Source: a virus
IMG/VR virus record: IMGVR_UViG_3300032356_000038
Location: 1-43,515 of that record
Reading direction: 5' to 3' (one strand)
Length of the DNA: 43,515 nucleotides
Shown here: in pieces, positions 1,973-43,515 of the stretch
Numbering within the stretch: position 1 is the first letter of the stretch
Layout of the letters: each line of letters starts with the position of its first letter
Notes under the pieces: model-generated
Databases searched by the model: none
The model's input: the letters and a program-made list of their open reading frames with translations, nothing else
What the model was told of the DNA's origin: nothing
Position numbers and translations under genes: made by a program

Positions 1973-2602
1973 ATGCCAGAGATTAAATTAAATAAATCAA
2001 CCACATACCAGAAAGAAATTGAAAATAAAAGAAAAGAATTAAAAAATATTAGCGAACAAGCTGCTGATAATATTATCAGTGTTGTTCGTAGCACCCGATT
2101 ATCCAAAGTTGAGTTAGCAGATTTGCTTCAGATGATTGCTCAAGGATATTCATACCAAAGAATCATTAAAAAATTCAAAGCCAAATATGACCGCACAATG
2201 TCTACCACCACTATTAACTCATATAAAACAAAATATGAAGGGAGAATTAGTGAAATTGCAAAGGATATGGAGTCGTTGGCTATTGAGAAAGGTCTTACCA
2301 AGAAGTTTAATAGACTTAAAAAAGAACAAGAATTGGCGGAAGCTTTAGAAGATGAGATATTTGATGAAGAGGGTGGTTTGAAGACCACTAACGATAAAGT
2401 TTTACGTGAATATAGAGAAATATTAAAACTAATCGCTCAGGAAGCTGGGGATATTAATGAAGGATACCAAGGCGATACAATGTTTATTAACACATCTGAT
2501 GACGAGTTGAAAGAATTAGTTCAAAATAAACTTAAAAGTAATAAAGATTTGAGTGTTATTTTGGCGGAAGCAGCAGGAGTGAGAGTTGCCACCACAAAAT
2601 AG
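1973..2602 (+). CDS. terS: Putative terminase small subunit
   Basis: A 209-residue, mostly helical protein directly upstream of, and overlapping by 17 bases, the large terminase gene. A lysine-rich N-terminal coil (about 5-35) is followed by a helix-turn-helix-like section (about 43-80: SKVELADLLQMIAQGYSYQRIIKKF), the usual DNA-recognition part of small terminases. A charged coiled segment then follows. The C-terminal part is acidic and would contact the large subunit. The assignment is from position, size and helix-turn-helix character rather than strong sequence identity. AAAGGAG precedes the ATG. Confidence 0.65.
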   Translation: MPEIKLNKSTTYQKEIENKRKELKNISEQAADNIISVVRSTRLSKVELADLLQMIAQGYSYQRIIKKFKAKYDRTMSTTTINSYKTKYEGRISEIAKDMESLAIEKGLTKKFNRLKKEQELAEALEDEIFDEEGGLKTTNDKVLREYREILKLIAQEAGDINEGYQGDTMFINTSDDELKELVQNKLKSNKDLSVILAEAAGVRVATTK

Positions 2603-4031
2603 TGAATTAGCAAGAGCATTATCTGAATTAGAGAGACGTAAAAAGGATGACCCATTAAGGTTTTATGAACCATCTAGCCCTCAGGCGTTAGAGTTTCATA
2701 AATCTAAGGCTATCACTCGTGCATTGTTTGGAGCTAATAGGTCTGGTAAAACAGAAACATGCTGTTTTGAGTTAGTATTTCACCTAGATGGCAAACATCC
2801 TTTTCAAGAGGTTCCAAAAGCACCAGTGTATTGGAGATATGTGGCAGTAGATTACCAAGAACTTGAGAAGGTAAGTATTCCTAAACTCAAACAGATTATT
2901 CCAAAGAGATTATTAATCAACGGTAAATGGGAAAACAGCTATAATGAACGCAAACATATCTTAAAACTAGCTAATGGAAGTATGGTTGACTTTATGACAC
3001 ACGAACAATCACTCCTATCGTTTGAAGGAGCCGCTCGTCACGGCACAGTTTTTGATGAAGAACCACCATATGATATATATAAATCTTGCGTACTTCGTCA
3101 TGTTGACTATAACGGACGGACCATAATGGGTATGACTCCATTATTTGGTCTTACCTGGGTTTATGATAACATATATTTACCAAGTATGACCCAATCCCAC
3201 ATTGATAGTTGGATAATCTCTATCTATGATAATAAATTTCTAAGTGCTGAAGCTATTGCTGAAGTAGAAAAACTTATAACTGATGAAACAGAAAGAGAAA
3301 TTCGTTTGTTAGGTAAGTTCACTTCAAGAACTGGTCTTGTATTTAAGAGTTTTGACGCCACAAAACATATATATGCTGCACCCACAAAAGAAGAGGATAG
3401 CTATTACCAGTGGTGGGAGGGTCCGTATCCTCCTAGTTACTGGATATGGATAGTTGGAATAGACCCTGGATGGGGACACCCTACAGGAATTGTGTGGTTA
3501 GCTATTAATCCTGATAATGGCGACACATATGTGGTTAAAGAACATAAAGCTAGTGAGATGTTTCCTAAAGACCATGCAGATATTATTCATATGACCAATG
3601 AAGAGTTAGGTGGAATTAAACCTATCTATGTTATTGACTCTCAAGCTAAGGCAATTGAACAATCCAAAGGACATTCTGTTTGGAAGGAATATGCTGAATA
3701 TGGAATAGTATGCAGATTAGGAACCAAGAAGCTAGTAGATGGAAATAGAAAGATTGCTGAGTTAATGAAGGTTACGAATGGATTTACTAAACTACATATT
3801 TCTGACGAATGTCCAGAGTTAATTGCGGAGATAGGTAAATATCAACGTAAAGAAACAAATGATAACCAAGAAAGGTTTGTAGATAAAGAAAATGATTTAA
3901 TTGCAGCATTAAGATATGCAGTATGGGAGTCAATGAGAGTTGATATGGACACATATTTGGAAAATATCAATCGTAGAGGACGAACAAACTCATTTAATTT
4001 ACAAAGAAATACATTAAAAACAGGATATTAG
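2586..4031 (+). CDS. terL: Terminase large subunit (ATPase and nuclease)
   Basis: This is the packaging motor, which cuts the DNA concatemer and drives it through the portal. The 481 residues are typical for podoviruses. The Walker A motif is GANRSGKTET (about 50-60), and Walker B is GTVFDEEPPY with the catalytic acidic pair at about 153-162. The C-terminal RNase H-like nuclease has acidic motifs in GIDPGWGHPTG (about 292-302), YVIDSQ (about 346-351) and DKENDLIAALRY (about 434-445). The start is TTG at 2586, supported by AGGAG at 2575-2579 six bases upstream. The next in-frame ATG is far inside the protein. It is translationally coupled to the small subunit. Confidence 0.95.
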   Translation: MPPQNSELARALSELERRKKDDPLRFYEPSSPQALEFHKSKAITRALFGANRSGKTETCCFELVFHLDGKHPFQEVPKAPVYWRYVAVDYQELEKVSIPKLKQIIPKRLLINGKWENSYNERKHILKLANGSMVDFMTHEQSLLSFEGAARHGTVFDEEPPYDIYKSCVLRHVDYNGRTIMGMTPLFGLTWVYDNIYLPSMTQSHIDSWIISIYDNKFLSAEAIAEVEKLITDETEREIRLLGKFTSRTGLVFKSFDATKHIYAAPTKEEDSYYQWWEGPYPPSYWIWIVGIDPGWGHPTGIVWLAINPDNGDTYVVKEHKASEMFPKDHADIIHMTNEELGGIKPIYVIDSQAKAIEQSKGHSVWKEYAEYGIVCRLGTKKLVDGNRKIAELMKVTNGFTKLHISDECPELIAEIGKYQRKETNDNQERFVDKENDLIAALRYAVWESMRVDMDTYLENINRRGRTNSFNLQRNTLKTGY

Positions 4032-4083: not shown

Positions 4084-4341
4084 ATGCCAGAAGCAATAAC
4101 AACTAGAGTAGCACGTTTAGAACAAGGATGTATAGACCATAAACTCTACTTAAAAGAAAAATTTGACAACATTGATACAAAATTAGATAAGATTCAAGAA
4201 TCAGTGGATAGTTTATTTAAAGATAAACATTTTAGAGAAGGTTATAATACTGGTCGTAGCCCATTCTTTAGAGGTTTATGGGATGTGACATTAAGACTAT
4301 TACCAGCACTTATAGGGTTTATTGTCGGGAGGATAGTATAA
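4084..4341 (+). CDS. Holin-like / XhlA-like small membrane protein
   Basis: An 85-residue protein with a coiled-coil N-terminal part (about 5-48, FDNIDTKLDKIQESVDSLF) and a single hydrophobic helix at the C-terminus (about 65-85, LWDVTLRLLPALIGFIVGRIV). Coil-plus-tail-anchor is the architecture of haemolysin XhlA-type proteins found with phage amidases. Its stop overlaps the amidase ATG by one base, so both are made together. It may help the amidase reach the cell wall or form part of the holin system. A second candidate holin lies at 13724. Confidence 0.55.
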   Translation: MPEAITTRVARLEQGCIDHKLYLKEKFDNIDTKLDKIQESVDSLFKDKHFREGYNTGRSPFFRGLWDVTLRLLPALIGFIVGRIV

Positions 4342-5081
4342 TGGGAAAACCAACTAATTTTATAAGAATATCAGAAAAAGATTTCACTAATTTTTTACGT
4401 GGATTGAGAATCCAACGTCCATTACGACGTATTATTATGCACCATTCCTATTCACCAGCAGCTAAAGACTGGAAAGGCGTACAAACGCTTCAAGCAATGG
4501 AAAAATATCAACAACGTCCAGATACATTGAATGCTAAACAAATAGCATATCATATTATTATTGACCCAGATGGTGGAATATGGCTTGGTCGTCCACTTCA
4601 AGATGTTGGAGCCCATACACGCAATCATAATAAAGATTCTATAGGTATTTGTATGATTGGAAACTTTATGGTTGATTCAGCAACAGAACCTCAATATCAA
4701 TCAGCTCTTCATGTTGTTCATCAGTTAAGATGCAAATTTGGTAAGCTGGAAGTTGGTGGACATAAAGATTATGTTGCTACAGCGTGCCCTGGGGTTAATT
4801 TTAATATCAAGAAATTTAAAGAAGATGTGGAAATGTTTCCAAGATTTCAGTTATATATTAACGATGAATTAATAGACGGAGCAAATGCTGAATTAAAAGA
4901 TGGAGCATTATATGTGGCGAAAGAACCTATTATAAAATATTTTAATATTGATACAGAATCAGGAGATATGGTGTTTTTGCGTCCGTTTTTAGATTCTCAT
5001 AATATTAAAATTATTGTTTATAATCCATTACCAACAGCAATTAAAATATATACGAAAGATAATCGTGAAAAGAAAAGCTAA
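4341..5081 (+). CDS. N-acetylmuramoyl-L-alanine amidase (endolysin)
   Basis: An Amidase_2/PGRP-fold zinc enzyme that cleaves the bond between muramic acid and the stem peptide. Zinc ligands are visible: His in RIIMHHSYS (about residues 30-38), His in GGHKDY (about 139-144) and Cys in TACPG (about 147-151). The YHIIIDPDGGIWLGRP and GAHTRNHNKDSIGICMIGN motifs of the family are present. The catalytic domain fills about residues 1-165. The remaining 80 residues are a beta-rich tail of unknown function, possibly wall-binding. The start at 4341 follows GGGAGGATAGTATA and overlaps the upstream stop. Upstream in-frame codons lie inside the previous gene and are less likely. Confidence 0.92.
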   Translation: MGKPTNFIRISEKDFTNFLRGLRIQRPLRRIIMHHSYSPAAKDWKGVQTLQAMEKYQQRPDTLNAKQIAYHIIIDPDGGIWLGRPLQDVGAHTRNHNKDSIGICMIGNFMVDSATEPQYQSALHVVHQLRCKFGKLEVGGHKDYVATACPGVNFNIKKFKEDVEMFPRFQLYINDELIDGANAELKDGALYVAKEPIIKYFNIDTESGDMVFLRPFLDSHNIKIIVYNPLPTAIKIYTKDNREKKS

Positions 5082-9826: not shown

Positions 9827-10705
9827 ATGGCAGCAATAAGCAGGGAACAACTAATACGAGATGTGCGAACTCTCACACGTCAAACTAACACCAAACCATT
9901 TACCGATGCTGATATTTTAAGATTTATTGAATTTGGGATTGATGATTTAAGTAATCGTGTACCATTTGCAATGGCACTCGACCGTACCCATTCAGAAAGG
10001 GGTATATCTGAATATATATTACCGATTGATGTTTTAGAAGTAATTGAATTGTATTATAGAAATGCTAGTGCTGTAGTACTAGCCACAAGTATTAATACTA
10101 CTGCTAATGAAATTGAAGTTAGGTCACTCACGACAGAGTTTCCAAATTCGGGAGTGTTGATTATAAATGATGAACAAGTTAGATACACATCAAAAACAGA
10201 CTATGTGTTTAAAAACGTTACAAGAGGGGTAAATAATACTATTGCGGCGTCTCACACCAGTGGGGCGATTGTTGAAGAGGTTGCAAGTTGGCAATTATTA
10301 GAACCTATATCTTCAAGAGATTTAGCAATAGCTAATCCATTATGGTTAAGTAGTAATCCAGGGGTACCGACGTATTACTACTCCTATGGTGGAGTAATAG
10401 GATTTGATAGACCTTTACCTAAGACTGGCAAAGATAATATTATGATTAGGAGTTTAATTAGACCACCAGCATTAGGTGACGATAAAGCAACAATAGCAGG
10501 TTTATTTGCGTCTGCTACAAAAGCTATTATCCATTATGCTGCGGCAGAGCTGGCATTAACATTGGCTCAAGATGACGCTTCTGTTATTCAAGCAAGACAA
10601 TGGCAACAGATGTATTTAGCTGAAGTACAACAATTTGCGACTCGACAATCGTTATATCAACGAGGTAGAGATATTAAAATGAAACCAAGGACAGGGAGGT
10701 TATAA
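9827..10705 (+). CDS. Head-to-tail adaptor (tail tubular A-like)
   Basis: The 292-residue protein has the helical N-terminus expected of podoviral adaptors (LIRDVRTLTRQTNTKPFTDADILRFIEFGIDDLSNRV). It is followed by a beta insert (about 85-150, GVLIINDEQVRYTSK...GVNNTIAASHTSGAI) common in tail and adaptor proteins. Helices near 225-265 (ASATKAIIHYAAAELALTLAQDD) fit the core. It would sit below the portal and join it to the nozzle. It follows the capsid terminator, has GGGGGTGG as ribosome site, and its stop overlaps the reductase ATG. Confidence 0.7.
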   Translation: MAAISREQLIRDVRTLTRQTNTKPFTDADILRFIEFGIDDLSNRVPFAMALDRTHSERGISEYILPIDVLEVIELYYRNASAVVLATSINTTANEIEVRSLTTEFPNSGVLIINDEQVRYTSKTDYVFKNVTRGVNNTIAASHTSGAIVEEVASWQLLEPISSRDLAIANPLWLSSNPGVPTYYYSYGGVIGFDRPLPKTGKDNIMIRSLIRPPALGDDKATIAGLFASATKAIIHYAAAELALTLAQDDASVIQARQWQQMYLAEVQQFATRQSLYQRGRDIKMKPRTGRL

Positions 10706-13353
10706 TGCTGAAAGAACAAGTTTTACAAGAAAGATATTTAATGGATGGGGAAACGGAACAAGATATGTATTGGAGAGTTGCCAATTATTTAGCTGATAAT
10801 GATAAGGAGTCAAATCGGTTTTATGAAGTTATGTCAAAGGGGTATTTTTTACCCAATAGCCCAACTTTAATGAATGCAGGAAAACCCAATGCTCAGTTAT
10901 CTGCATGTTTTGTTTTACCTATTGATGATTCAATGGATAGTATATTTACTGCTGTGAAAAATATGGCATTAATTCATAAATCTGGGGGTGGAACAGGATT
11001 TTCATTTTCAAAATTAAGACCAATGAATGATTCTGTAAAAAGCACTAATGGTGTGGCAAGTGGACCAATATCATTTATGAAAGTATTTGATGTTGCAACA
11101 AGCGTTGTAAAACAGGGAGGAACCAGAAGGGGTGCTAACATAGCTGTATTAAGAATTGACCATCCTGATATTGTAGATTTTATCACATGTAAAGCAAATG
11201 TGACAGAATTTACTAATTTTAATATTAGTGTTGGAATCACAGATAAGTTTATGGAAGCTTTATTTGCTGATACTGAATATGATTTGATTCATCCCAACAC
11301 TAACGAGGTTGTGAAAAGAGTTTCTGCTAAAGAAGTGTGGGACTTGATATGTTCAACAGCTCATCAGTTTGCTGAACCAGGTCTATTGTTTTTAGACCAT
11401 ATCAATCATTTTAATCCAACACCAGAATTAGGGGAGATAGAAACAACCAATCCATGTTTATCTGGAAACACTTGGGTAACAACTGAGAATGGACCAAAAC
11501 AAATATTTGAACTTGAGGGAATTCCAAGCCAATTGTTGTTAGATGGTAAATTTAATAAAACATCAGAAGATGGATTTTTTATAACTGGATATAAACCAGT
11601 ATTTAAGATTTCAACAGATAAAGGATATTCAGTAGAAGCAACCGCAGACCATTTAATTAAAACTATTGGTGGTTGGACTAGAGTAGAGGATTTGAATATT
11701 GGAGATTCAATAGAATTATCTTCCAATAGAGGTTCTAGCTGGGAAGGTTATGGAAAACTTGAAGACGGATACTTGTTAGGTATGCTTGTAGGAGATGGAA
11801 CACTTAAAGATGAAGGAGCAATTCTAAGTGTTTGGGATACACCATCATTAGTGAAAGCTATAGAACAGACATTCAAATCATTAGGTTATGATAAACATTT
11901 TCAGAAGATGATTGAAGATAGAAAGGAATTTAGATTAAAATCATGTTATGTAAGAGATTTGGCTTATAGATTTGATATGAGTGTTGGGGAAAAAAGAATA
12001 ACACCAGCTGTTGAAAAAACATGTAGTGATTTTCATATTGGATTTATAAGAGGTATGTTCGATTCAGATGGGACTGTAATTGGTTCAACAGAAAAAGGTA
12101 TAAGTGTTAGATTGTGGCAACATGATTTAGAAAACTTATATGCTATTCAAAGAATGTTACATAGACTGGGTATATTATCTACTATATATACGAATAGAAA
12201 ACCAGAAGGGAAGAAACTATTACCAGATGGAAAAGGCGGATATAAAGAATATGATGTAAAAGCTGGTCATGAGTTAGTTATTTCTAATGATAATTTACAA
12301 TTCTTTTATGATATTATTGGGTTTAATCATGAAGATAAACAAAATAAATTAAGAGAGTTATTAGAAACATACAAAAGGACGCCAAATAAAACAGTGTTTA
12401 TAGCAACTATAACAGGTATTGAATATATTGGGGACATGGATGTATATGATGTTAATGTTCCTAACATCAACGCATTTGAAGCAAATGGTATCGTAGTTCA
12501 TAACTGTGGTGAGCAACCTCTGTTACCATATGAGAGTTGTGTTTTAGGTTCTATTAATTTAGGTCAAATGGTAAAAGATGGTAAAATTAATTATAATAAA
12601 TTGAAATATACCACAATGGTTGCTGTTCATTTATTGAATAGAGTTGTGGATAAAAATATATATCCATTAGATGAAATCAATCAAATGAGTCGTCAAACAC
12701 GAAAGATTGGTTTAGGGGTTATGGGGTTTGCTGATATGTTAATTAGATTATCAATTCCATATGCTCAATCTGTGCCAGTAATTAAAGATGTTATGGGATT
12801 TATTAAACAAGTTGCATATGATATAATTGAAAAATATGACTATCAAAATAAAAGTGTATTTACTATTGCCCCAACAGGGAGTATTAGTATTTTAGCTGAA
12901 TGTTCTAGTGGAATAGAACCTATTTTTGCTTTAGCTGGGACTCGTAAAAGTTTAGATGGTAAAGAGTTTGCTATTGAAAGTTCATGTTATAATGATTTAA
13001 AAACTCTTGCTGAACGTATTGGTGTATGGTCAGAGGAATTACAGCAACATATATATGAGAACGGTTCTATTATTGATAGAACAGAATTTCCTGCATACAT
13101 ACGAGAATTATTTAAAACAGCAAGAGAAATTAGTCCATATGACCATGTGAACATACAAGCAGCTTTTCAATCAGAAATTGATAACGCTGTAAGTAAAACA
13201 ATTAATTTACCATTTTATTATTCTGTAAAAGAGGTATCTGATATTTTTAAAAGAGCTTGGTCTTTAGGATGTAAAGGTATTACAATTTATGTAGATGGTT
13301 CTCGTCCTGACCAGGTATTAGACACTCGTGAAAAATGTCCAGTATGTGTATAG
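10705..13353 (+). CDS. nrdJ: Class II (B12-dependent) ribonucleotide reductase with intein
   Basis: Reduces ribonucleotides to deoxyribonucleotides for phage DNA synthesis. The 882-residue precursor holds an intein (residues 251-600), leaving about 532 residues after splicing, compact for NrdJ. Active-site parts are present: Cys68 (QLSACFV); NP|CGEQ, where the radical cysteine is residue 601 after the intein, with its Asn and Glu partners; Cys612 (YESCVLGSINL); the APTGSIS loop (about 721-727); and a C-terminal CPVC pair (878-881) for re-reduction. No small-subunit or activase gene occurs in the window, which supports class II, needing adenosylcobalamin from the host. GGGAGG precedes the ATG, which overlaps the adaptor stop. 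Unusually, it lies in the structural gene half. Confidence 0.9.
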   Translation: MLKEQVLQERYLMDGETEQDMYWRVANYLADNDKESNRFYEVMSKGYFLPNSPTLMNAGKPNAQLSACFVLPIDDSMDSIFTAVKNMALIHKSGGGTGFSFSKLRPMNDSVKSTNGVASGPISFMKVFDVATSVVKQGGTRRGANIAVLRIDHPDIVDFITCKANVTEFTNFNISVGITDKFMEALFADTEYDLIHPNTNEVVKRVSAKEVWDLICSTAHQFAEPGLLFLDHINHFNPTPELGEIETTNPCLSGNTWVTTENGPKQIFELEGIPSQLLLDGKFNKTSEDGFFITGYKPVFKISTDKGYSVEATADHLIKTIGGWTRVEDLNIGDSIELSSNRGSSWEGYGKLEDGYLLGMLVGDGTLKDEGAILSVWDTPSLVKAIEQTFKSLGYDKHFQKMIEDRKEFRLKSCYVRDLAYRFDMSVGEKRITPAVEKTCSDFHIGFIRGMFDSDGTVIGSTEKGISVRLWQHDLENLYAIQRMLHRLGILSTIYTNRKPEGKKLLPDGKGGYKEYDVKAGHELVISNDNLQFFYDIIGFNHEDKQNKLRELLETYKRTPNKTVFIATITGIEYIGDMDVYDVNVPNINAFEANGIVVHNCGEQPLLPYESCVLGSINLGQMVKDGKINYNKLKYTTMVAVHLLNRVVDKNIYPLDEINQMSRQTRKIGLGVMGFADMLIRLSIPYAQSVPVIKDVMGFIKQVAYDIIEKYDYQNKSVFTIAPTGSISILAECSSGIEPIFALAGTRKSLDGKEFAIESSCYNDLKTLAERIGVWSEELQQHIYENGSIIDRTEFPAYIRELFKTAREISPYDHVNIQAAFQSEIDNAVSKTINLPFYYSVKEVSDIFKRAWSLGCKGITIYVDGSRPDQVLDTREKCPVCV
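11455..12504 (+). mobile_element. LAGLIDADG homing intein in nrdJ
   Basis: The 350-residue intein is inserted just before the catalytic cysteine of the reductase. It begins with Cys251 (CLSGNTWVTTENG) and has the block B motif TADH (313-316). It ends in VVHN, with Asn600 for cyclisation, followed by Cys601 as the +1 nucleophile. Between the splicing halves lie two LAGLIDADG helices, GYLLGMLVGDG (about 355-365) and IGFIRGMFDSDG (about 445-456). Both keep their metal-binding aspartates, so the homing endonuclease looks intact. Conserved active-site positions of reductases are known favoured intein sites. All splicing residues are present, so splicing is expected. Confidence 0.93.
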
Positions 13354-30090: not shown

Positions 30091-30238
30091 CCCCTTTACA
30101 TTTATCTACAAACTTCTGTGTACCAGTGTCATATGAACTACCACATTCGTACGTGTATTCATAGAACATATGTCCGTCTAGCTTCTGAATCTTAGCCCCA
30201 CACTTGGGGCATAATGTTTTAACTGTTTTCTCTTTCAT
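30074..30238 (-). CDS. Small zinc-ribbon protein
   Basis: A 54-residue protein from ATG 30238, which overlaps the previous stop (TAATG) and follows TGGAGG. The sequence has CPKCG (about 10-14), with further cysteines in YECGSS and DKCKGG that could complete a zinc ribbon. A longer reading from 30289 would lie inside the upstream gene and lacks a ribosome site. Role unknown; it is coupled to a cell-wall enzyme and a secreted protein. Confidence 0.6.
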   Translation of the reverse strand: MKEKTVKTLCPKCGAKIQKLDGHMFYEYTYECGSSYDTGTQKFVDKCKGGDKTE

Positions 30239-30588
30239 TATTTCCTCCAATAATATACTGTTTTCTTTTGTACCCCAAATTGAATACATTCATCTCTAGT
30301 GTTTAATCTAATATCAATTCTATTCCCATTGATTTTACCTCCAGTATCGTCCGCTAGATACCACTTACCATCAATCAACACATTAGTACCTAGCGGAATC
30401 ACTTTAGGGTCAACTGCTATACCCTGCACCTTACTAGCATTGGTGCCAGACGCTGTCCTATTACCAGTCCGTTGGATAGGGCAGTTAGTAGAATAAGCAG
30501 TTACCGTCATATTCTTTTCCACCAGTTTATCGGAAGAAAACTGAAGACTATTTATCGCTATTATTATAGCTACTAATAGTAAATCCAT
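30238..30588 (-). CDS. 3D-domain (MltA/RlpA-like double-psi barrel) cell-wall protein
   Basis: A 116-residue protein with an N-terminal membrane or signal helix (MDLLLVAIIIAINSL) and a 3D domain. TVTAYSTNCP is the first strand, then GIAVDPKVIPLGTNVLIDG, and LADDTGGKINGNRIDIRL carries the aspartates that name the family. Related domains (MltA, YocH, YuiC) cleave peptidoglycan glycan strands. Facing outside the membrane it could help lysis or wall remodelling alongside the amidase. Unusually, it sits at the far end of the leftward operon, not in a lysis cassette. It overlaps its neighbours at both ends by TAATG. Confidence 0.82.
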   Translation of the reverse strand: MDLLLVAIIIAINSLQFSSDKLVEKNMTVTAYSTNCPIQRTGNRTASGTNASKVQGIAVDPKVIPLGTNVLIDGKWYLADDTGGKINGNRIDIRLNTRDECIQFGVQKKTVYYWRK

Positions 30589-37901: not shown

Positions 37902-39791
37902 TTAATCATTTATCCATACAGAAAATTCTTCATCTTCAACACTTAAGTGAGACATTATATCCCCAACTTCATAAGAGTCATCGACTGGTATATCAGAGTC
38001 AAAACAACTTGCATAAACTACTGCTGGATACCTAATATTATCATCTATATCTGGATATTCATTCGCAAATGTTACACCGACGGGTTGTTCACTGACATGG
38101 TCAGCTAATACCCGTATCACCGTACTCATATATGCCGCAGTGTTATTCTCATAAGATAGGTTTTCAGCAATTATTGTAGCTATTTTATTTCTTAAAACTG
38201 TATCTTTTATAACATGATAGTATATCCTTGCCATAAACGCAGGATGAATAACGCTATCATTAACAAATTGACAATTCCCATAATATGTTTGTATTACATC
38301 TCTTATTACAACAGGTGTATAACAACTTGTAAACGCATTTAAGAATACTAAAGAATTTGTCGGATAGAATAACATCTCTGTATTCTTTGTCACATCTGCA
38401 TGGCGGTTAATAATCTCAATCAATTTTATACAATTACATAAAAATGTATATTCATCCATCGCATTTAGTTCCCCATTTAGATATTGTGAAAAATTATCTA
38501 ATGTGGCACATAAAGTCCCATACTCTTCTCTTGCCATACTAGATTTATGATAAGTTGCAATCGCTTCTAACATTTGTTTAAATGCCATTACATGTGCAAT
38601 CTCTTCCTCACCGTTTGAGCTATCACAATTTAAAATAGTTGTTCGCATTGGAGATATTCTATCATTCAATTCACTCATTAATACATCATGTAATTTAACA
38701 ATCACTTTTGATGTATTTGAACTCAATTGTGCATCAATCCAATCAAAGTAAACATTAGCTTTACAAACATTTGAACAGCACATACAAGAGATATATTCTG
38801 CATTCATTGAACACCTTTCAATTTTAGTTCTCATCTCTTTTTTGTTCAATTTAGTTTTAATAAATAGGTCAACAAGTTCTTTATCATAAAGAACTCTTTC
38901 ACTAACAACCGAACCGTTTACAGTTTCAGTTCGTATGCCGTTATGTTCCATAATGACTCTTGTCTCATCTCCATCCACATAAGTAGTTTCAGTGATATAT
39001 CCAGTTTTATCTATTGCCTTATAATGAATATTCTTATTTTTATATGGAACGGTTGTTATTTCCATTGCCCAACCTAAGTATTTGTTAGTTACAGGATTAT
39101 TAACATCAATCATAAATTGATTAAAATCCATATCTTCTTGAGTCATACATTCCACAAAATAAATGGCTTTAGCAATCTCATGAATATCAAATGTTCCATT
39201 GAATAATCTAAACTCAACTGTTCCATGTTTTAATAAAGACTGAAGGTTTAGCCATCTATACCTTGCGTCACTATCCAGATTGCGTAAGAAGTTTACAACT
39301 TCTGTTTTAGTTGCACAATCGGGTGTGACAATTTCATTATCATTTAACTTATCTGCATATCTTTTTCTAAAATCATACCTTTGGAAGTATTTGAATACTT
39401 TGTCTTCCCATTTTACTGCATTCTTAATGATAGTAAATAATGTGCTAAGTCTAATTGGAAACTTTTTCCAATCAGTATTATTATTATCATACCAATCTAA
39501 TTCACTGAAATGGATATGTAACCCACAAGTCTCATTAACAACAGGTCTATAAGCATGTGCAACAGTGTTTAGTTGTTTCATAAAACTATACACATGATTA
39601 TCGAATTCTAAATTAGATTCACAAGTATTTAAAACTCTTGTTTTTATTTCTTGCTGAACACATCCAGTCATGTTTTTTCCGTATGCTAATCCTTGAGCTT
39701 TTATACTTCCATCATAACAAAAGCTACAGGACTTTAAATGCTTCTCTCTTATAATCATTCCAGTGAATTCAATCTCTATTCCAATATTCAT
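37902..39791 (-). CDS. Amidoligase (glutamine-synthetase-like), large form
   Basis: The N-terminal about 240 residues match the Amidoligase_2 family (COOH-NH2 ligases of the glutamine synthetase fold). GIEIEFTGM (about 3-11) carries the metal-binding Glu-x-Glu. NETCGLHIHFSELDW (about 85-99) has the His-x-His strand, and YRWLNLQSLLKHGTVEFRLFNGT (about 182-204) the conserved Asn and Glu-x-Arg. Such enzymes join amines to carboxylates using ATP. The C-terminal about 390 residues are an unrecognised helical region with a Cys cluster (CMCCSNVC near 336-343) that may bind zinc. It lies 47 bases from a glutamine amidotransferase gene. The target is unknown. Confidence 0.8.
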   Translation of the reverse strand: MNIGIEIEFTGMIIREKHLKSCSFCYDGSIKAQGLAYGKNMTGCVQQEIKTRVLNTCESNLEFDNHVYSFMKQLNTVAHAYRPVVNETCGLHIHFSELDWYDNNNTDWKKFPIRLSTLFTIIKNAVKWEDKVFKYFQRYDFRKRYADKLNDNEIVTPDCATKTEVVNFLRNLDSDARYRWLNLQSLLKHGTVEFRLFNGTFDIHEIAKAIYFVECMTQEDMDFNQFMIDVNNPVTNKYLGWAMEITTVPYKNKNIHYKAIDKTGYITETTYVDGDETRVIMEHNGIRTETVNGSVVSERVLYDKELVDLFIKTKLNKKEMRTKIERCSMNAEYISCMCCSNVCKANVYFDWIDAQLSSNTSKVIVKLHDVLMSELNDRISPMRTTILNCDSSNGEEEIAHVMAFKQMLEAIATYHKSSMAREEYGTLCATLDNFSQYLNGELNAMDEYTFLCNCIKLIEIINRHADVTKNTEMLFYPTNSLVFLNAFTSCYTPVVIRDVIQTYYGNCQFVNDSVIHPAFMARIYYHVIKDTVLRNKIATIIAENLSYENNTAAYMSTVIRVLADHVSEQPVGVTFANEYPDIDDNIRYPAVVYASCFDSDIPVDDSYEVGDIMSHLSVEDEEFSVWIND

Positions 39792-39838
39792 TTTATTCTT
39801 CCCTTTCTCTAAACATGATTATAAAAACCTATAATTTA

Positions 39839-40954
39839 TTATCCAATATATGACTTATAAGGGTCATCCCATAACGGGTCTAAATCATTTACAATCTCAC
39901 TTTCTGTATATTCATCTTCTGTTATATTAATTATTGGTATTTTTTCATAATCTTCATCATCTTCATCTATACCCAATACTTCAGAAGGTTTTAAATCAAA
40001 TTCAAACATCTCTTTTATATCAAATTCATTAAGGTCATATATTTTCACTCCATTGATTATGATAGGTAAATCTAAAGTAAGATGTAATTGTTTTTTAGTT
40101 TTAGCTTGAGTGTATGAACTCCATGCTGGGTTGTTACAAGTATATGAACAGGTATGTTTAGCTGTTTTATATGGAATCGGTTCATTATAAACCCATTGAC
40201 AATCAACCGTATCATACACCATGAACTTATATTCATCTTTAACTAATTCACTACTAAATACAATATTATATTCTTTAGATAGTTCCTGCCATGCCGCTTG
40301 AATATTTATATATTGTTTATTCCATGATACACCCAATAATTCATCACATAACACACTGAATGTACTGGCATAATATATAGTTCCTGTTTCCTTATGTTCA
40401 ATCATTGTAAACTCTTGAGTATCCACACCAATATACACATATCTTGGCTGTTTCATATTTACTAAAGTAAAGGCATATACACCTGTTAATGTGCTTAAAT
40501 CTTTTAAAAACTTGTCAATACTATCATAATCATTCACATCTAAGTTACACTCATGAGCAATTAATGGAATATACTCACTATCCACATCATGCTGTTTTAA
40601 TTTACTATACTTGTTACTTGAATTCCAATTATATAAATACCCATTATGATTGACAATCCAATCATTATACCTTACAGGGTGATTGTTATTATTTTTAGAA
40701 TAATGTCCTTTAGTCATCATTCTTGTATGGCATAATATTGTATTGCATGTGTCCTTAATCATATTATATGGCTTATCATTTATAAGCAAATAACTTGCTT
40801 TAGGTTGTTTATATATAAAACATTTGTTCTGATTATTTATTCCTATTACTCCGCTTGAATCTGTTCCTCTTACTGAAATCCACGCAAACATCCCTTCCAT
40901 TATATTTTTATCTTTACTTTCTTTACTATTAATAATTCCTGCTAATCCACACAT
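39839..40954 (-). CDS. Class II glutamine amidotransferase (Ntn hydrolase)
   Basis: The N-terminal MCGLAGI gives Cys2 as nucleophile once Met is removed. Further family motifs are RGTDSSGVI (about 29-37), CHTRMMTKG (about 75-83, with the oxyanion arginine region), and VNHNGYLYN followed by DSEYIPLI (about 100-130), as in GATase II domains. About 220 residues make the glutaminase; the C-terminal 150 are acidic and unrecognised and contain no synthase domain like those of asparagine synthetase or GlmS. Between two amidoligase genes it could supply ammonia, or act as an Ntn peptidase on the ligation product. AAAAAGGATGGTATAA precedes the ATG; a promoter lies at 40998-41023. Confidence 0.85.
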   Translation of the reverse strand: MCGLAGIINSKESKDKNIMEGMFAWISVRGTDSSGVIGINNQNKCFIYKQPKASYLLINDKPYNMIKDTCNTILCHTRMMTKGHYSKNNNNHPVRYNDWIVNHNGYLYNWNSSNKYSKLKQHDVDSEYIPLIAHECNLDVNDYDSIDKFLKDLSTLTGVYAFTLVNMKQPRYVYIGVDTQEFTMIEHKETGTIYYASTFSVLCDELLGVSWNKQYINIQAAWQELSKEYNIVFSSELVKDEYKFMVYDTVDCQWVYNEPIPYKTAKHTCSYTCNNPAWSSYTQAKTKKQLHLTLDLPIIINGVKIYDLNEFDIKEMFEFDLKPSEVLGIDEDDEDYEKIPIINITEDEYTESEIVNDLDPLWDDPYKSYIG

Positions 40955-40997
40955 AGGTTATACCATCCTTTTTATTTAATCTTTCACCATCCTATAT

Positions 40998-41023
40998 ATT
41001 ATATACTGCAAATACTGTGCCAA
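40998..41023 (-). promoter_or_regulatory. Leftward AATTGGCA-type promoter before the amidotransferase
   Basis: Read leftward: TTGGCA (41023-41018) directly after the stop of the amidoligase gene, then TATAAT (41003-40998) with a short 14-base spacer, or TAATAT at 16. Two ribosome-site-like AAGGATGGT/AGGATGGT blocks follow before the ATG at 40954. It shares AATTGGCA with sites at 42013 and 42627. Confidence 0.5.
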
Positions 41024-41956
41024 TTAAGCAATATTAACTAATTCTTTCTGATATATTTTAAGATTAGATTCAACTAAGTCACTAGCTATCCAATGAATTA
41101 TATCATCTTTACTACTTGGCACAGGTAATGTTACTTGTTCTACTCCACAAATCTCATTCAGTGTGTTAAACAGACATGCAAATGTTGAATAAACACATAA
41201 TTTAATATATGCTTTTATTTGACTTTCACTGAATATATGACCTTTTGTATCATCGGCAGCAGAACATTTATAATCACCATCAAATAGTCTAAACTCAACG
41301 GTATTAGTGTTATCATCGATGGCATGTCTAGTGTTCCATGTGATTTCACATCCTTTAAATGAACGGTCAAGGGCTGTTCTGCCAGTAGTATCTATTGTAT
41401 CCCATGATAAAGGCTTACAATATTCAGTTTTCCTTTTTCTAAAGACCCTTAATGGTCTAAAATGTTTAGCAAACACATGCTGATTATTATATATAATTTG
41501 TTTAATATCCGCAGGAATACCAACATGTACATGCAATCCGCATGTAGTGTTAGCTTGAAATTGATCTAATTCTAAAGAATCAACTAATTTAAATAGGCGT
41601 TTTAATAAATACCCATTCACTGTTTTTAATTCACTTCCAGCATCATAACCTTCTGAACAGTTACATCCTCTAAAACTCCATGAACAGTAATCAGTATCTG
41701 TTATGGTGTCACCGTTTGTGTTACTAAAAATGCAGGGACAATCATCTTCATTTAAACAGTAATGGCATTCACCATAATAATACTCTTCACAGTCACATCC
41801 ATGCACATTCACACTTCCATCATGACCTAAATAAAAATGATTTGAATTGTAATGTAAAGTAATAAACTCACCTTCTAATTCAAAGCCAAAAGTTATGTTG
41901 TCTAGAAGCTGATGTTTCAATTCTTCAGCCTGTCTTTTTAATACCTTTATACCCAT
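41024..41956 (-). CDS. Amidoligase (glutamine-synthetase-like), short form with Cys-rich insert
   Basis: A second Amidoligase_2 protein of about 310 residues: FGFELEGEF (about 22-30, Glu-x-Glu), HDGSV, NTTCGLHVHVG (about 137-147, His-x-His) and NTVEFRLFDGD (about 219-229). Between the first two elements lies an insert with about ten cysteines (about 52-100: CDCEEYYYGECHYC, CPC, CNC), probably one or two zinc knuckles. It resembles the 629-residue protein in motifs but not length. ATG 41956 is preferred because AAAGGATT precedes it, and transcription from the promoter at 41986 would start too close to the ATG at 41974. Confidence 0.8.
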   Translation of the reverse strand: MGIKVLKRQAEELKHQLLDNITFGFELEGEFITLHYNSNHFYLGHDGSVNVHGCDCEEYYYGECHYCLNEDDCPCIFSNTNGDTITDTDYCSWSFRGCNCSEGYDAGSELKTVNGYLLKRLFKLVDSLELDQFQANTTCGLHVHVGIPADIKQIIYNNQHVFAKHFRPLRVFRKRKTEYCKPLSWDTIDTTGRTALDRSFKGCEITWNTRHAIDDNTNTVEFRLFDGDYKCSAADDTKGHIFSESQIKAYIKLCVYSTFACLFNTLNEICGVEQVTLPVPSSKDDIIHWIASDLVESNLKIYQKELVNIA

Positions 41957-41985
41957 TTTTTTTAATCCTTTCATATTAGAGTGTT

Positions 41986-42013
41986 ATTATACATGTTACA
42001 CAAAGTATGCCAA
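41986..42013 (-). promoter_or_regulatory. Leftward AATTGGCA-type promoter before the short amidoligase
   Basis: TTGGCA (42013-42008), a 16-base spacer containing ACTTTGTGTAACAT, and TATAAT (41991-41986). The spacer sequence is shared with the site at 42627, so the conservation goes beyond the two boxes and may include a regulator-binding site. This is the best-formed member of the family. Confidence 0.7.
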
Positions 42014-42021
42014 TTAATCAA

Positions 42022-42042
42022 TTATATGAAGATTCTAATCAT
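42022..42042 (-). other. Possible six-codon leader peptide
   Basis: ATG ATT AGA ATC TTC ATA TAA (42042-42022) starts on the stop of the 40-residue gene (ATGA) and has AAGGAGGC upstream, a stronger ribosome site than most genes nearby. It ends 9 bases before the next promoter. It may be a leader peptide or chance. Confidence 0.25.
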
Positions 42043-42161
42043 TCTTTACGCCTCCTTATCTTATATTTATATAAATGCCATCCGTTTTTATAGCCAATAT
42101 AGGTCACATAATCTAGTAAATCAACTTCACAATATACTTTCAATGATACTATAATATCCAT
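42039..42161 (-). CDS. Small protein, 40 residues, paralogue of 42630-42782
   Basis: ATG at 42161 follows AAAAAGGATGGTATAAAA. The sequence (MDIIVSLKVYCEVDLLDYVTYIGYKNGWHLYKYKIRRRKE, here noted by its core DLLDYVTYIGYKNGWHLY) matches the 50-residue protein at 42630 (core GLEGYVEYLGFKDGMHVY): YV-x-Y-x-G, aromatic, K, acidic/Asn, G-x-H, aliphatic, Y. Both have basic ends. Function unknown. It ends in TGA. Confidence 0.5.
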   Translation of the reverse strand: MDIIVSLKVYCEVDLLDYVTYIGYKNGWHLYKYKIRRRKE

Positions 42162-42205: not shown

Positions 42206-42577
42206 CTAGTCTATTCCAAGCTCTAATAATTGCTTTTCTAATTGGTCAATGGTATTCTTTAGTTTATCAATGGTATCATCATTTAACCTTATAACATTCT
42301 TATCCCAGCCTTTACAACCCCAATAGCCTGCTGATATATGTAAATGTCTTCTTGTTAGATTCCCATGCTTAAACCCATGCACCCAATTATCACTACTATC
42401 AGATTTATAATACACATGAGTGTCACTATAACCGTAAATCTTAAACGGTATCTTACTGTTAGACCTTGTACCTTGAAAGTCTTGTGTATGATTCATTATG
42501 ATTTTAGGGTAATCGAACCCATCTATATTGTAATGATTATCATATTCTACTACCTTTAAACTAACTAGTTTCTTCAT
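42206..42577 (-). CDS. Hypothetical protein, 123 residues
   Basis: Starts at ATG 42577 after AAAAGGAGTGTTATA; a longer reading to 42721 would overlap another gene and the promoter at 42602, so it is rejected. The protein is rich in Tyr, His and Asn (KVVEYDNHYNIDGFDYPKII; THVYYKSDSSDNWVHGFKHG) and ends in a coiled helix (DTIDKLKNTIDQLEKQLLEL). Possibly a DNA-binding or host-takeover protein. No family recognised. Confidence 0.55.
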   Translation of the reverse strand: MKKLVSLKVVEYDNHYNIDGFDYPKIIMNHTQDFQGTRSNSKIPFKIYGYSDTHVYYKSDSSDNWVHGFKHGNLTRRHLHISAGYWGCKGWDKNVIRLNDDTIDKLKNTIDQLEKQLLELGID

Positions 42578-42601: not shown

Positions 42602-42627
42602 TTTATATGTTACACAAAGTGTGCCAA
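42602..42627 (-). promoter_or_regulatory. Leftward AATTGGCA-type promoter
   Basis: TTGGCA (42627-42622), then the spacer ACTTTGTGTAACAT shared with the site at 42013, then AT-rich TATAAA/TAAATA (42607-42600), a weaker -10. It lies just after the stop of the 50-residue gene and before the ribosome site of the gene at 42577. Confidence 0.5.
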
Positions 42628-42629
42628 TT

Positions 42630-42782
42630 CTAATATTCTGATATAATTCTTTTGTTTTTCTGCATTTTATTATGTATTGCATACACATGCATGCCATCTT
42701 TAAAACCCAAGTATTCAACATAACCTTCTAGTCCTGTTAAATCGATTCGATGTTTAAACAATTTAATCTGTGTTTTCTGCAT
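42630..42782 (-). CDS. Small protein, 50 residues, first leftward gene
   Basis: ATG at 42782 follows AAAAAGGATGGTATAAACTT. The protein (MQKTQIKLFKHRIDLTGLEG..., ending NKRIISEY) shares its middle with the 40-residue protein at 42039. It is basic, small and the first gene after the right-end promoters, as is typical of early host-takeover peptides. The function is unknown. Confidence 0.5.
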   Translation of the reverse strand: MQKTQIKLFKHRIDLTGLEGYVEYLGFKDGMHVYAIHNKMQKNKRIISEY

Positions 42783-43178: not shown

Positions 43179-43239
43179 ATACGAACATTACTTGAATAAA
43201 TTGTGAACAACTATACGAACAACTATACGAACATTACTT
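43179..43239. repeat. ATACGAAC iterons
   Basis: ATACGAAC occurs at 43179, 43213 and 43225. The last two belong to a perfect 12-base tandem repeat GAACAACTATAC (43205-43216, 43217-43228), followed by another GAAC. A 15-base copy ATACGAACATTACTT is at 43179-43193 and 43225-43239. This spacing fits binding sites for a regulator or replication initiator. Confidence 0.6.
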
Positions 43240-43347
43240 TTAGAAAGTATGACAATTATGAACCCCCTATGTCAAAAATGAAAAGGGGTGAGAGGGGATA
43301 ATATTTCCACCTGCACAATTTTCTCCTTAAAACTCGCCCTTAGCCTT

Positions 43348-43428
43348 TGCATTTTTAGTGTAAAAATAGTCACTTTCTTCCACTTTAACCCCCTTTTTAG
43401 ACTTTAAAATGCATTTTTAGTGTAAAAA
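43348..43428. repeat. 19-base direct repeat
   Basis: TGCATTTTTAGTGTAAAAA occurs at 43348-43366 and 43410-43428, exactly 62 bases apart (about six helical turns). Read leftward each copy holds TTTACAC followed by AAAAATGCA. Possible regulator or promoter elements; function not known. Confidence 0.6.
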
Positions 43429-43515
43429 AAGCGAGCGATTCTAACCTCTTTTAATATAACCAATAATTCTATAATATAAAAATAGAGGTGTTTTACTAAA
43501 ACGATTTAGCTCCGC

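Follow-up and report, generated by a model that had tools for sequence, protein, structure and literature searches.

The virus record IMGVR_UViG_3300032356_000038 of IMG/VR was analysed whole, as a window of 43,515 bases; it is classed as linear and is perhaps a fragment. On the minus strand it carries a cassette in which two amidoligases flank a glutamine amidotransferase (GATase) of the N-terminal nucleophile (Ntn) class. The order of transcription is 316-residue amidoligase, 371-residue glutaminase, 629-residue amidoligase.

41024..41974, minus strand: small amidoligase, 316 residues, PF12224
39839..40954, minus strand: stand-alone class II (Ntn) glutamine amidotransferase, 371 residues, PF13522
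37902..39791, minus strand: large amidoligase, 629 residues, PF12224

An original prediction, made from the letters of the DNA, had described two amidoligases of very different size around a stand-alone glutaminase. The open reading frames (ORFs) and Pfam scores above the cut-offs bear this out, the ligase lengths being 316 and 629 residues. The motifs then quoted are present: GIEIEF / GFELEGEF, CGLHIH / CGLHVH and, in both ligases, TVEFRLF, with the series MCGLAG...HTR...HNG...DSE in the glutaminase. A six-frame search found only two amidoligase places in the record, both already known as ORFs.

The large ligase matches Amidoligase_2 (PF12224) with E=1.2e-11 and 45.5 bits against a curated cut-off of 22, and residues 1 to ~220 form the catalytic domain. 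The active-site set comprises E6, E8, E48, H92, H94, R177, N182, E193 and R195. In a divergent alignment of 36 sequences, the large ligase and 35 relatives from viral contigs, the ExE pair, the third glutamate, GxHxH, RYxxLN and TVEFR are all kept. Over residues 1-220 the AlphaFold model is of fair to good quality, with predicted local distance difference test (pLDDT) scores of 70-90 in many blocks, and it places active-site residues on strands 2-11, 44-50, 89-94 and 191-195. A fold search with this model gives as first PDB match 1tt4 (probability 0.99, E=6.5e-3), the solved structure of a predicted glutathione synthase/carboxylate-amine ligase. Among viruses the matches are amidoligases, with E down to 2e-7, for example from Arthrobacter phage Salgado. 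Judged by the model, the large ligase is of the glutamine synthetase (GS)-like carboxylate-amine ligase fold class. Searches by sequence returned no convincing solved relative of either ligase. The catalytic domain is followed by a C-terminal part of ~370 residues, mostly helical, which has no relative in any of the loci fetched from other viruses. The ligases of two contigs with a related terminase are similar in size, their extra residues lying inside or before the catalytic domain.

The glutaminase scores 31 bits (E=2.8e-7) with GATase_6 (PF13522), for which the cut-off is 27. Alignment shows that the GlmS/PurF-type catalytic set is conserved, namely the N-terminal C2, R78, the oxyanion hole N104-G105 and D125. 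The profile of the protein matches GlmS (4amv/1xff) at E~1e-14, and the glutaminase domains of PurF and AsnB are matched too. The NCBIfam glmS/PRK00331 match is confined to residues 1-176, the family matches cover residues ~1-200 only and the fused synthase (acceptor) domain is absent; this is therefore a stand-alone glutaminase and not GlmS. Residues ~240-371 have no family match, nor has this C-terminal part a relative in the fetched loci. A pattern scan confirmed no cellular relatives of the GATase, although it was narrow and absence is not thereby shown.

The small ligase is recognised by PF12224 at E=8.1e-5 and 23.0 bits, barely above the curated cut-off of 22. Its active-site residues are those of ExE (E32, E34), E117, the histidines of CGLHVH (H148, H150) and E227 and R229 of TVEFR, and a Cys-rich insert occupies residues ~50-110. 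Both profile comparison and a divergent alignment of 33 sequences, the small ligase and 32 relatives, indicate that all active-site motifs are kept except a recognisable RYxxLN. An internal ATG at 41956 provides an alternative start with a better ribosome-binding site, and fits the end point originally given for the cassette. By profile-profile comparison the two ligases belong to a single family (hhalign 100%, E=2.4e-88). A recent duplication was considered and is no more than possible: the ligases pair in a tree (0.84), but the branches are long and the identity is ~18-25%. With the small-ligase model a fold search ranks glutamine synthetases first, at no significance. The GS-like active site that had been foreseen is supported by the predicted structure for the large ligase, which models as a carboxylate-amine ligase, while the model of the small one decides nothing.

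Searches of viral contigs with single proteins gave no close relative for any of the three cassette proteins, and profiles were used for that reason. The glutaminase profile led to 35 other viral contigs, which were fetched with their flanks and scored again at a stricter threshold. In 31 of them the glutaminase is accompanied by a nearby GS-like ligase, mostly adjacent; if only contigs with at least 3 kb to either side are counted, the figure is 22 of 24. Among 27 contigs chosen solely for a related terminase, both genes occur in the same two, where they are adjacent, and neither in the other 25; the chance of this is 1/351 if the genes were independent. The co-occurrence in other phages on which the original prediction depended is found in both samples. 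Neighbours in Arthrobacter phages Kovu and Edmundo are a cyclotransferase, ligase and GATase, and in a Melvirus a cyclotransferase, GATase, COOH.NH2 ligase, amidoligase and ATP-grasp protein. Vibrio 275E43-1, Pseudomonas Rembedalsseter and Stenotrophomonas StenR_269 likewise have ligase and GATase side by side. Directly supported are the gene identities, their linkage, the conserved catalytic residues of the large ligase and glutaminase, and the fold class to which the large ligase belongs.

A second group of loci, which includes gut Heliusvirales and Terrisporobacter TPDSL_ph1, combines ligase with cyclotransferase and has no GATase. Cyclotransferase is present in 77/80 and 58/79 of the loci found with the profiles of the two ligases. 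The GATase contigs are variable, 8/35 having a cyclotransferase and 17/35 an ATP-grasp protein, so neither is treated as defining. Over the sampled amidoligase loci, cyclotransferase occurs in 134 of 154 without GATase as opposed to 9 of 33 with it (Fisher p=2e-11, a value inflated by the common descent of the loci and by their selection in separate searches). We take as a lead from these gene contents that GATase and cyclotransferase may in part stand in for one another. None of the other loci in the sample combines two PF12224 ligases and one GATase while lacking both cyclotransferase and ATP-grasp.

PMC5498523, citing Hardies et al. 2013, describes a 'peptidoglycan modification cassette' known from RIO-1/PSA-HP1, phiEco32, LUZ24, tf, PA11 and CW02, predicted to modify peptidoglycan peptides and so exclude other phages. 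The parts given there are GATase, amidoligases, ATP-grasp and gamma-glutamyl cyclotransferase (GGCT). PMC10580990, PMC11318856 and PMC11253131 repeat the wall-modification prediction, citing Iyer et al. 2009, where the cassette is reportedly described as well. As in these podovirus cassettes, a glutaminase-fold GATase and two GS-like amidoligases lie among replication genes; unlike in them, no cyclotransferase or ATP-grasp was found here. The relatives compared share ~20-30% identity, and none of the fetched loci has a counterpart of the large ligase's C-terminal extension. The second ligase here is itself of PF12224 type, whereas in the Melvirus examined its place is taken by a member of a separate family, 'COOH.NH2 ligase'. 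In Kovu, Edmundo and other Laroyevirus relatives (GGCT - amidoligase - GATase), a PF12224 ligase similarly adjoins an MCG-type stand-alone GATase, near Cas4-like nuclease and helicase genes as here, and tblastn to Arthrobacter phages gives E=1e-6 for the ligase and E=6e-9 for the GATase. These phages differ in having a single ligase, a cyclotransferase, another host and another phage type. In TPDSL_ph1 and the gut Heliusvirales (amidoligases with GGCT) there are one or two PF12224 ligases, of the subfamily that tblastn places closest to the small ligase, but a cyclotransferase in place of the GATase. Among cellular enzymes, MurT is Mur-ligase-like and GatD is a class I glutaminase; the pair is non-homologous to the phage cassette. 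As an analogy only, MurT/GatD is a ligase and glutaminase combination that amidates wall glutamate (PMC3267633).

The record thus holds a divergent and pared-down form of an already described phage system, the amidoligase/GATase cassette. GS-like ligases and GlmS/PurF-type glutaminases do recur together in phages, as the original reading of the cassette had it, but the novelty was overstated since such a cassette is already published. It recurs across phages of many hosts. In the collected loci a GATase adjoining a GS-like ligase forms the core, with cyclotransferase, ATP-grasp and a second ligase as optional parts, a division that narrows the contents of any biochemical test. To these the record contributes a combination that is among the smaller ones seen, and a ligase whose C-terminal extension is unusual; the general picture stays as it was.

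In GS-like ligases ATP serves to activate a carboxylate, which is then coupled to an amine; class II glutaminases use their N-terminal cysteine to hydrolyse the side-chain amide of glutamine. In the most probable mechanism, the cassette would be expressed early, together with replication genes; the glutaminase would hydrolyse the amide of glutamine or of a gamma-glutamyl compound and the ligases, with ATP, would form an amide bond on a carboxylate. The constant pairing of glutaminase and ligases across these genomes suggests that the former supplies ammonia, or trims gamma-glutamyl amides, for the ligase products. The most plausible target would be the peptide part of the host peptidoglycan or its precursors, and the cell surface might thereby be changed during infection, to block rival phages or to rebalance precursor amidation. 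Catalysis, ammonia transfer between the proteins, the substrate and the benefit to the phage are what we infer. The explanation as a whole, with the wall as leading substrate, is given an about even chance because the sequence does not distinguish the wall from protein or metabolite targets.

Several points weigh against this explanation. Nothing ties the cassette to peptidoglycan over protein, nucleotide or peptide substrates, and a literature search found no experiment on any phage amidoligase/GATase cassette. Neither GGCT (own profile, PF06094/PF13772) nor ATP-grasp (ATP-grasp profile) was detected in the record, absences to be treated with caution as the record could be cut short. Compared with the large ligase, the small one has diverged further, the arginine and asparagine of its RYxxLN are unclear, the Pfam score is marginal and the AlphaFold model is weak (pLDDT 49.6). 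It is possible, if doubtful, that this protein is a weak or dead paralogue serving as partner subunit of the large ligase, with only one active ligase in the cassette. That score, the low-confidence model and the RYxxLN segment missing from the profile alignment would all be explained, and phages elsewhere with two amidoligases can hold one poorly conserved copy (TPDSL_ph1, L008:6593-7321). However, the residues of ExE, the third glutamate, CGxHxH and ExR are retained in the small ligase. A dead paralogue is compatible with any reading of the substrate, be it wall, protein or metabolite.

Two further explanations concern that substrate. The ligases might modify a host or phage protein, either with a peptide or gamma-glutamyl tag placed on side-chain carboxylates or by amidation of glutamate or aspartate, the glutaminase-fold protein removing or editing the tag; the outcome would be takeover of a host factor, not a change to the wall. 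We consider this unlikely. The 370-residue helical extension of the large ligase and the Cys-rich insert of the small one are possible protein-binding parts and the cassette sits among DNA-metabolism genes; for ligases of this class, peptide tagging was also reportedly put forward by Iyer et al. 2009, going by the title as cited in PMC7824862. Against this, there is no known target, and the cyclotransferases linked in relatives point to gamma-glutamyl amines, though the substrate is not settled thereby. Alternatively, the cassette might make or break a free gamma-glutamyl amide, for nitrogen or polyamine metabolism or support of the nucleotide pool, with the glutaminase replacing the cyclotransferase of most amidoligase phages. 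The distribution of cyclotransferase (134/154 compared with 9/33) is in keeping with replacement, and the phage invests in metabolism, encoding a nucleotide pyrophosphohydrolase-like protein besides ribonucleotide reductase. The p-value is nevertheless inflated as described, and nine loci, including Arthrobacter phages, hold both enzymes, which are not strict substitutes; we judge the free amide quite improbable as the product. Modification of the wall remains our leading explanation.

The leftward orientation noted at the outset is confirmed by the ORF map and family matches, which place the cassette next to replication and recombination genes. Leftward genes run from ~42.7 kb down to 29.5 kb and include the cassette, followed by a PD-(D/E)XK nuclease, RuvC-like resolvase, primase-like protein, Rad52/Erf annealing protein, DnaB and SbcD-like exonuclease. 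Rightward genes encode terminase, portal, capsid, internal virion functions, ribonucleotide reductase and DNA polymerase. Known anti-phage defence was considered and set aside, there being no PADLOC match. Around and upstream of the small ligase and glutaminase lie the following features.

40955..40984, minus strand: repeated leader with exact AAAAGGATGGTATAA, directly before the glutaminase start
40996..41023, minus strand: promoter-like TTGGCA / TAATAT site before the glutaminase, consensus match only
41986..42013, minus strand: promoter-like TTGGCA-16-TATAAT site before the small amidoligase, consensus match only
about 42039-42161, minus strand: short ORF, ~40 residues, paralogue of the ~50-residue ORF
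42206..42577, minus strand: small gene upstream, 123 residues, no confident family match, possibly of the same early block
42630-42782, minus strand: short ORF, ~50 residues, paralogue of the ~40-residue ORF

Three exact copies of AAAAGGATGGTATAA, at 40958, 42164 and 42787, lie upstream of leftward genes. Leftward genes are also preceded by TTGGCA[C/T]A...TATAAT-like sites, three in number and alike, at 41023, 42013 and 42627, and the site at 41986..42013 is a 26-nt repeat of 42604-42629. Over the record, sigma-70-like sites are at chance level (82 found, 81.6 expected from shuffles). That cassette genes have promoters of their own is a plausible suggestion for the small ligase and glutaminase, each of which has one of the similar sites before it. 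For the large ligase, with neither a promoter-like site nor a AAAAGGATGGTATAA leader before it, the suggestion is not supported; nor does the general scan lend support. The gap from glutaminase to large ligase is 47 bp, and from this layout the two probably share one transcript. A sigma-54 promoter (TGGCAC-N5-TTGC at 41023) was considered and set aside: one of the three sites fits, the count is at chance and a sigma-70-like site is simpler.

The two short ORFs are paralogous (YVEYLGFKDGMHVYAIHNK / YVTYIGYKNGWHLYKYK), with 0/5000 shuffles reaching their similarity score, and each is directly downstream of an exact AAAAGGATGGTATAA leader. They might be phage peptides on which the ligases act, the glutaminase being ammonia source or editor, but we regard this as very improbable.

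Elsewhere in the window, the ribonucleotide reductase large subunit (10705-13353, plus strand) is split by an intein (~residues 250-600) that bears a LAGLIDADG endonuclease domain. A 3D-domain protein is encoded at 30238-30588 (minus strand) and an N-acetylmuramoyl-L-alanine amidase domain at 4278-5081 (plus strand); this domain pattern would fit a Gram-positive host, as a candidate. The terminase (2586-4031, plus strand) has Arthrobacter phage Jasmine as nearest named phage, at ~35%, and the window is AT-rich (30-40% GC) despite this. Direct repeats that are almost identical form two pairs (28 nt and 22 nt) at 43179-43252 and 43348-43431, in an AT-rich, gene-poor end that is possibly a genome terminus or an origin.

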